A stretch of DNA of 64,000 nucleotides, from the NCBI RefSeq assembly GCF_900110455.1, contig NZ_FOIS01000001.1, positions 496,001 through 560,000 of the forward strand, read 5' to 3'. Each line of letters starts with the position of its first letter. Position 1 is the first letter of the stretch. Made by a program: the position numbers and the translations under genes. The stretch comes from Natrinema salifodinae (GTDB taxonomy: Archaea; Halobacteriota; Halobacteria; Halobacteriales; Natrialbaceae). Shown here piece by piece: positions 47,290 to 53,465 of the stretch. Below the pieces are notes generated by a model that did no database searches, was not told the origin of the DNA, and worked only from the letters and a program-made list of their open reading frames with translations.

Positions 47290-47379
47290 ATGGCACGAGA
47301 TTCCGTCTCCACGCCACGCGACGAGGATAGAGGAAGTCGGGGCGACCCGGCTGGGCGTGAAATTCTCCGACGAACGTAA
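47290..47379 (+). CDS. 29-codon upstream ORF before the LeuA/CimA-type gene (speculative)
   Basis: ATG at 47290 to TAA at 47377-47379 encodes 29 residues beginning MARDSVSTPRDEDRG. A TATA-like TTTAAG (47253-47258) lies about 35 bases before its ATG. It overlaps the 5' part of the open frame of the synthase gene in another frame. It has only one Leu and one Ile codon, so it is not a classical attenuator. It may be a chance ORF. Confidence 0.2.
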   Translation: MARDSVSTPRDEDRGSRGDPAGREILRRT

Positions 47380-52877: not shown

Positions 52878-53380
52878 ACCACCCTGGCCAGTCTGTCGAA
52901 GCTCGAGTCACGTTCATTGCGGTCGTGTCCCAATTCGTACCACAAGAATTCGCATAGTGACCGCGCCTGCGAATGACGGGCCGCCCCCTCGGCGATTCGG
53001 GAATTGGGTCCGCGCGAAAACGGTCCTGAAATTTCCGCGGCGGACGGTTATATTCGCTCCATCGCCGGACTATCGATGCCGACCCGCCTGCGCCCGCGGC
53101 ACCGGTTCAACGCTCGCGGTTTCGATTCGGTGCTTGCGTTCGGCGACGCAGATATCGAACTGTTCAACCGAAATTCCCGAACCCGGTTTGAACCACCGAG
53201 TCACGTTACACCGCTCCGCGACGCTCGTCGGTTTGTGTCGCGAAGAAGCGCCGAGAGGGAGATTTGAACCACGCCCGAGAACCTGCGCTTCGCGCAGAAC
53301 CTCGGTCTAATTCAAATCATCGTTTGCATTCTTACGGCACAGACGACTCGCTTCGCTCATCGTTTTGTGTCGTGAAGAAG
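52878..53380. other. Intergenic stretch with a partial tRNA-Ser duplicate
   Basis: About 500 bases between the iron-sulfur gene and tRNA-Ser. It contains a direct repeat of the tRNA 3' end (53222-53269). It also contains a 63-codon frame (53076-53267) with a promoter-like GTTATATTC about 25 bases upstream; its basic composition argues against a haloarchaeal protein. No other gene was found. Confidence 0.5.
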
Positions 53381-53401
53381 CGCCGAGAGGGAGATTTGAA
53401 C
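53222..53401. repeat. Direct repeat pair, 48 bp, overlapping the tRNA-Ser 3' end (att-like)
   Basis: Copy 1 is 53222-53269 and copy 2 is 53354-53401, offset 132 bases, with 45 of 48 positions identical. Copy 2 covers the last 21 bases of the tRNA gene (T-arm and acceptor, minus strand) and 27 bases beyond its 3' end. This is the pattern left by site-specific integration into a tRNA gene and later loss of the element, or by local duplication. Confidence 0.7.
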
Positions 53402-53465
53402 TCCCGAGTCCGTGAGGACAGCAGATTTCGAATCTGCCGCCTTGGCCGGGCTAGGCTATCTCGGC
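53381..53465 (-). tRNA. tRNA-Ser (anticodon CGA)
   Basis: Read on the minus strand this 85-base gene folds fully. The acceptor pairs GCCGAGA with TCTCGGC and has discriminator G. The D-stem pairs GCCT with AGGC. The anticodon stem pairs GCAGA with TCTGC around loop TTCGAAA (anticodon CGA, for codon UCG). A long variable arm (GTCC/GGAC) and the T-arm GGGAG-TTCAAAT-CTCCC complete it. The long variable arm confirms serine. CCA is not encoded. Confidence 0.95.

Follow-up and report, generated by a model that had tools for sequence, protein, structure and literature searches.

A tRNA gene that is followed by a second copy of its own 3' end raises the question whether the repeat is the scar of an integrated element or part of something else. 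In Natrinema salifodinae, such a repeat locates behind the gene for tRNA-Ser(CGA), within the stretch of 64,000 nucleotides analysed here (the window, to whose numbering positions at this locus refer). The gene (53380/53381-53465) was identified by ARAGORN and by its match to the Rfam tRNA family; it lies on the minus strand, and the second copy is therefore situated downstream (3') of it. A sequence-only reading had reported a 48-bp direct repeat of the tRNA 3' end at a distance of 132 bp and had proposed an att-like scar, from which an element had been lost or reduced, or else a local duplication of the site. The repeat was confirmed by sequence comparison (53222-53269 and 53354-53401, with 3 differences). 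In a slightly longer version (53217-53269 and 53349-53401), the copies share 91% identity over 53 nt at a spacing of 132, and their final 28 bp (53242-53269 and 53374-53401) are identical. The repeat spans the T-loop to the tRNA 3' end, and the att-like geometry was likewise borne out.

The ~80 bp separating the copies contain two hairpins. In tRNA sense, the order of features behind the tRNA is hairpin A, inverted T-arm piece, hairpin B and direct copy; the unit amounts to 132 bp and all its features are on the minus strand. Hairpin A (53329-53379; -16.9 kcal/mol, z -2.6), recognised by folding, is a trailer hairpin with tandem G.A pairs in the tRNA-sense strand. Hairpin B (53261-53318; -32.2 kcal/mol, z -6.35) is composed of an inverted T-loop arm, the conserved core GAGGTTCTGC..GCAGGTTCTC and the T-loop arm of the copy. 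The functional repeat segment, tRNA bases 53-73 from the T-loop to the mature 3' end, corresponds to 53381-53401, and its displaced direct copy, preceded by CGTG in tRNA sense, to 53249-53269. Behind this copy, a hairpin-A-like sequence (53217-53248) probably represents either the original trailer or that of an older unit, and a possible further T-loop copy in decayed form (GGTTCAAACC, 53186-53195) was recognised by eye at low confidence. The earlier description of the repeat as tRNA end plus 27 bases beyond holds for the tRNA end only: family-wide, the repeated piece proper is bases 53-73 (21 nt), and the extra ~27 nt common to both copies are similar hairpin-A sequences behind each of them.

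Occurrence of the unit at other tRNA genes

A 331-bp query of the locus yielded matches in 58 of 61 genomes (own genome and relatives) and found, besides the tRNA-Ser region, many separate copies of the 58-bp hairpin B alone. All 20 of the dispersed copies that were fetched lie just 3' of a tRNA gene (Arg, Pro, Phe, Leu, Ser, Thr, Lys or Gly), and each has the end of its own tRNA repeated outside the hairpin. With the loop left free at 3-14 nt, 68 of the order's 243 genomes, belonging to 35 of 77 genera, contain the exact 20-base core, whose use makes the counts for this first core class no measure of core conservation; the reversed core pattern, serving as control, was detected in none of the 243. 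When one pattern locus was taken from each genome, a tRNA was present at a distance of 48-329 bp in 30 of 30 loci, always in the same relative orientation. Among 128 distinct exact-core units, 123 locate 47-378 bp 3' of an intact tRNA gene on the same strand, representing 27 tRNA types, and each unit carries the end of its own tRNA. The remaining five comprise one more unit of a long array (L139) and four units behind displaced tRNA 3' pieces (L157, L163, L171, L197). A scan of named genomes, covering at least 80 loci, placed all 49 halobacterial loci (assigned by title) among the matches listed within 600 bp of a tRNA, as compared to 0 of 34 bacterial ones.

The exact core was also observed in dispersed or tandem palindromes of Streptococcaceae MAG TD116 (L232, L256, L257, L228, L239) and of Clostridiales/Lachnospiraceae MAGs (L222, L214, L235, L259, L263). 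Some of these bacterial palindromes have an adjoining tandem G.A hairpin as in hairpin A, with no nearby tRNA; the shared core may reflect convergence or a common recognition system.

Prevalence per genome was determined with a strict criterion (last 20 nt of the tRNA, at most 4 mismatches, 25-200 nt downstream). In the own genome, 8 of 42 tRNAs have such a 3'-end copy downstream and 0 of 42 in the equal upstream stretch, an excess over chance; a looser listing adds two intron-containing genes (Gln and Met), and L032 resembles, by eye, an intron-bearing tRNA-Trp with a unit. In genome G182 from another family, 11 of 29 tRNAs (the usable ones among the best-scoring 30 of 43) are followed by a copy within 300 nt, and none of 25 tRNAs from seven genomes of the same phylum outside the order has one. 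Upstream controls were 0 in all samples. These three sets are fair samples; the larger tRNA sets employed below (168 tRNAs for the hairpin-A motif, and the set used for the CGTRG motif and the array polarity) were fetched mostly because they are unit-bearing, and are not.

The DNA between the two copies at tRNA-Ser(CGA) is a conserved structured cassette and not leftover DNA. With the same type of unit behind many tRNAs, a lost-prophage scar was rejected as explanation.

Search for a mobilizing element

In total, 14 PF00589 matches were found in the own genome. None of them is on the contig of tRNA-Ser(CGA) (C1), and wherever a match shares a contig with one of the ten unit-bearing tRNAs, at least 29 kb separate the two (own genome, distances determined by hand; the tRNA-Met on contig C4 is cut off by the contig end). 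The tRNAs that do have a PF00589 match up to 10 kb downstream (Gly-TCC, Ala-GGC, Thr-GGT, Arg-TCG and Pro-TGG) have no adjoining unit copy. In eight relatives, the 18 kb downstream of tRNA-Ser(CGA) contain no distant copy and no tblastn match to five integrases of the own genome; the other relatives were covered at this site over flanks of ~1.5 kb only. Partial duplicates at other tRNAs without integrases, which the sequence-only reading had named as evidence against its proposal, exist on a large scale, the integrase part of this statement resting on distances in the own genome only.

A 4.3-kb integrated element was observed at tRNA-Thr(GGT) on contig C4 of the own genome (L117:5700-10100), with an ORF resembling tyrosine recombinases (L117:5798-6805) adjoining the displaced Thr-GGT end. 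It is a typical integrase element, and hairpin B is absent from its junction.

A single integrase-bearing element that was lost or reduced at tRNA-Ser(CGA) would account for the tRNA 3'-end repeat, and real integrase elements such as the one at Thr-GGT do use other tRNAs of this genome. Against this stand the Thr-GGT junction without hairpin B, the eight relatives in which no element was seen at tRNA-Ser(CGA) and, above all, the finding of the unit behind numerous tRNAs of many genera, which largely refutes such a scar and leaves it scarcely credible.

A larger, autonomous element containing both hairpins was not detected. At tRNA-Arg(TCG) on contig C2 of the own genome (L100:6000-7500), a far copy of the tRNA end locates 3.9 kb off beside an interrupted integrase, directly preceded by a hairpin resembling another core class; this 3.9-kb stretch is possibly an autonomous relative. 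A 2.2-kb repeat at tRNA-Gly(TCC) (L171:3872-6400) was rejected as autonomous version, since its start is close to the anticodon and the unit is only a passenger in it. It is bounded by tRNA 3' halves, each with the same hairpin unit, and a similar far end is present in L163 around 4000.

Further candidates for the origin or the mover of the units were likewise considered. An attP on known phages yielded no match and one on plasmids a single match, in a Natronorubrum bangense replicon near ribosomal-protein genes and behind a tRNA-Gly; the three matches to viral contigs are all without tRNA and look like chance matches. All 7 genomes searched have genes for Y1/IS200 transposases (Y1_Tnp), with 1-9 matches each and 1 in the own genome, which is uninformative as to a putative role as mover.

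Repeat borders and architecture

Across the family, the general layout is direct piece, hairpin A, inverted piece, hairpin B, direct piece, with a median period of 125 bp (5-95% range about 81-189 bp). The units found are all in one orientation and often in tandem, no gene fits within a unit, and other core classes share the identical layout (read by eye from the loci). Copy-to-host identity per base, determined for the 120 of 123 units that could be placed, is 0.08 at base 51, 0.54 at 52 and 0.99 at 53, remains at or above 0.93 to about base 68, and is 0.78 at base 73, followed by 0.55 and 0.42. These sharp borders delimit the repeated segment as the 21 nt from the T-loop to the mature end. 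Copying from mature tRNA was considered because the repeat ends at base 73; it was rejected, as the displaced copies read mostly continue into a T-rich trailer and not CCA (uncounted).

Directly 5' of T54, the motif CGTRG is present in 137 of 263 displaced copies versus 0 of 239 functional tRNAs, which assigns the 5' side to the cassette. One extra base in the displaced T-loop was found in 30 of 120 units, including related GTTCACAATC forms read by eye at Phe, Arg, Pro and Ser tRNAs; these variants suggest that the T-loop part travels with the cassette. Most units have a short inverted piece of the own tRNA end ahead of hairpin B, while at tRNA-Gln (L105) and at tRNA-Ser(CGA) of L016 almost the entire length is present (read by eye). 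Beyond the T-loop, the inverted arm agrees with its own host at 4.52 of 8 positions versus 3.66 expected, a value reached in 0 of 5000 permutations.

The inverted arm of one hairpin B, in L064 at around 1530-1600, is split by a palindromic insert with a short CTATAGT-like repeat on its flanks. In L051 (672-1350), two tRNA-Gly(GCC) genes are followed by units of the same first core class with different hairpin A, one of them with a second hairpin inside the hairpin-A loop.

The alternation of direct and inverted tRNA-end pieces, including the long inverted copies of L105 and L016 and the host-matched inverted arm, could point to a purely local origin, in which template switching during replication generates direct-inverted-direct copies of the tRNA end that subsequently undergo tandem duplication and gene conversion, with nothing mobile involved. 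The seven tandem copies behind one tRNA-Gly of G182, mostly 111 bp apart, would also agree with this origin. However, repeated local origin does not easily explain how the same exact core comes to stand at 27 tRNA types and in 35 of 77 genera, and the element-side CGTRG motif is common to the units, so that a purely local origin is regarded as very unlikely.

Secondary structure and covariation

Compensatory changes between species were recognised by eye in hairpin A and examined by alignment for hairpin B outside the core, which the search pattern had fixed. The alignments comprise 51 of the 121 unit sequences that are distinct; they were drawn from every second sequence, other loop lengths being left out. 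Hairpin B covaries: in a set of 24 sequences, both partners of 9 pairs vary, and all 500 shuffles are exceeded by four of the five measures, the exception being the pair-type count (106 of 500). In a set of 27 sequences with longer loop, the covariation score and the cells paired exceed all 500 shuffles, whereas 169 of 500 shuffles are as high for changed pairs and 491 of 500 for pair types.

Such covariation, taken together with the strand on which the structure forms, could be explained by a functional RNA: readthrough from the tRNA promoter would generate a transcript whose tRNA-sense fold acts in 3'-end maturation, termination or regulation, and arrays would result from tandem duplication. 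Folding of three units gave better energies for the tRNA-sense strand than for its complement (-32.2 vs -23.0 and -26.7 vs -17.8 kcal/mol by RNA folding), but DNA parameters favour the sense strand too. Pairs counted in the hairpin-B stem include 89 G.T versus 16 A.C, in favour of an RNA, with one position giving most of the excess. In the larger, unit-enriched set, 60 of 168 tRNAs have the hairpin-A motif (tandem G.A) downstream in sense, with 0 in antisense and 0 upstream, yet the own genome has 8 in sense versus 3 in antisense. Strict copies are absent from most tRNAs of the own genome and units vary between congeners at one tRNA, from which it follows that they are not generally needed. 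For these reasons, an RNA function appears unlikely as the basis of the family. With respect to known RNA families, only tRNA matches at the units reach the Rfam gathering score; the best others (E 0.34-0.51) are far below the cut-off.

Arrays and turnover

The distance from tRNA-Ser(CGA) to the conserved downstream gene varies several-fold among relatives, with alignments to the own genome starting at 425 here versus 125 (L028), 196 (L030) and 549 (L004). The congeners L003 and L023, which are ~90% identical in their flanks, differ by one extra tRNA-proximal unit in L003, whose second unit aligns with the first unit of L023 from a junction inside the tRNA 3' end; this difference could also result from loss by recombination between repeats. 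The sequence-only reading had suspected an integration hotspot in relatives, and the site indeed turns over, units being gained or lost exactly there; larger elements were not among them in the eight relatives inspected.

In 64 arrays with at least two copies, the tRNA-proximal copy is less diverged than the last one in 29, more diverged in 6 and equal in 29 (sign test, 1e-4). Cores at different tRNAs of one genome are more alike than expected within families (p 0.005), and so are cores within one tRNA type across genomes (p <1/3000); cores mostly stay with a tRNA and sometimes move.

The polarity of the arrays is among the observations that a target duplication would account for. A transposase-like or Cas1/casposase-like integrase making staggered cuts before base 53 and after base 73 would duplicate 21 bp, the cassette itself (hairpins A and B) would be devoid of tRNA-specific sequence, and the newest units would adjoin the tRNA like CRISPR spacers at the leader. 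The constant extent of the repeat and the host-type copies at 27 tRNA types fit equally well into this scheme. It is opposed by the partly host-matched inverted arm and by the displaced T-loops with an extra base (including the GTTCACAATC forms), and no terminal inverted repeats were recognised; we consider target duplication quite unlikely.

Possible insertion at the T-loop

The units constitute a structured, tRNA-anchored cassette family, present in multiple genera throughout Halobacteria, with fixed repeat borders, arrays and turnover. The preferred reading, for which we see about an even chance, is that of gene-free mini-cassettes which insert in att-like manner at tRNA ends and are mobilised in trans by a putative recombinase. 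A new unit would enter directly at the tRNA, the exchange taking place within or next to the universal T-loop (GTTCRAATC). By this mode of entry, the tRNA would stay whole and its old 3' end would be shifted outward behind the cassette, as in attL/attR of tyrosine integrases. Since the cassette encodes nothing, a recombinase acting in trans would have to move it; this enzyme would probably recognise the folded form of the tRNA-sense strand together with the CGTRG-TTC junction. Cores may also pass between the tRNA loci of one genome.

Insertion is favoured by the tRNA anchoring, the sharp borders, the CGTRG motif, the array polarity, the L003/L023 pair, the likeness of cores between loci and the covariation. 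It is disfavoured by the lack of a linked recombinase, the PF00589 matches of the own genome not being near unit-bearing tRNAs, by the failure to find a larger autonomous version with both hairpins, and by cores that mostly stay put and are more alike within one tRNA type. The host-matched inverted arm beyond the T-loop is left unexplained by simple insertion. A further difficulty concerns the exchange itself: if the proximal 3' end were carried by the cassette, a change of tRNA type would harm the tRNA, and yet one core class is present at 27 types. A 21-bp target duplication would avoid this problem.

A more far-reaching claim, which we regard as rather doubtful, is that the units represent mobile DNA of a new class: cassettes without genes, identified through the fold of their tRNA-sense strand, would enter nearly every tRNA gene at its T-loop/3' end, restore the tRNA and accumulate in arrays, amounting to a CRISPR-like or integron-like accretion with a tRNA anchor across Halobacteria and a candidate recombinase. 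If insertion applies, the space behind haloarchaeal tRNA genes would be a standing record of repeated insertions by an element too small to encode anything, which raises the question which enzyme moves the cassettes. Repeats of tRNA 3' ends in Halobacteria should then not automatically be taken for prophage scars, and the set of units would provide natural sites of defined structure, at which a T-loop-specific recombinase or an RNA function of tRNA trailers could be sought.

Comparison with known systems

Sublocations within tRNA genes of tRNA-targeting integrases were reportedly treated by Williams in 2002. Bacterial REP/BIME sequences are short imperfect palindromes of alternating orientation that form arrays and exhibit stem mismatches and strand asymmetry. 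The units share all of these properties, and dispersed imperfect palindromes in inverted alternation were indeed found; they differ in that they occur at tRNA 3' ends and that every unit includes a copy of the tRNA it belongs to. Of the RAYT (Y1) transposases associated with REP/BIME elements, the own genome has one candidate, its single Y1_Tnp match. Integron arrays consist of attC hairpins and grow at one fixed end. Growth at a fixed end and hairpin sites of conserved structure and variable sequence recur in the units, which differ by carrying no gene, by the tRNA gene as anchor and by no IntI having been identified: neither an integrase nor gene cassettes accompany them, the PF00589 matches of the own genome lying away from units, and the attC R/L box consensus does not fit by eye. 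In CRISPR arrays and in casposons at tRNA ends, a repeat of fixed length is duplicated beside a leader-like anchor. Duplication of a fixed-length repeat on one side of the anchor is common to the units, in contrast to which the intervening sequence is a conserved palindromic cassette and not a unique spacer.

The attL/attR sites of tyrosine integrases, as far as covered by the accessible parts of PMC8371274, resemble the units in the 3'-end repeat starting from a tRNA loop, in the gene left whole and in the newest insertion next to the tRNA. The units differ by the lack of genes and integrase, by arrays of ~80-190 bp periods, by conserved folding hairpins between the repeats and by the many tRNA types; a direct repeat ending at the tRNA end was found, nearby integrase or element genes were not. 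Small mobile repeats of Haloquadratum (MITEs and PATEs) are likewise gene-free, short and haloarchaeal and, in the parts available of PMC3119063, are not described as tRNA-bound or carrying tRNA ends. No published description of such a tRNA-end cassette family was found in the literature covered, including the accessible portions of PMC3119063, PMC8371274, PMC9897764 and PMC3402447; the family may nevertheless be known, subscription papers being little represented.

Apart from the tRNA-Ser(CGA) locus, the window contains a leuA-Halobacteria RNA (Rfam RF03001) at 47316-47368. This known cis-regulatory RNA is positioned at the start of a long ORF. The latter presumably codes for a LeuA-type synthase, as which it reads.
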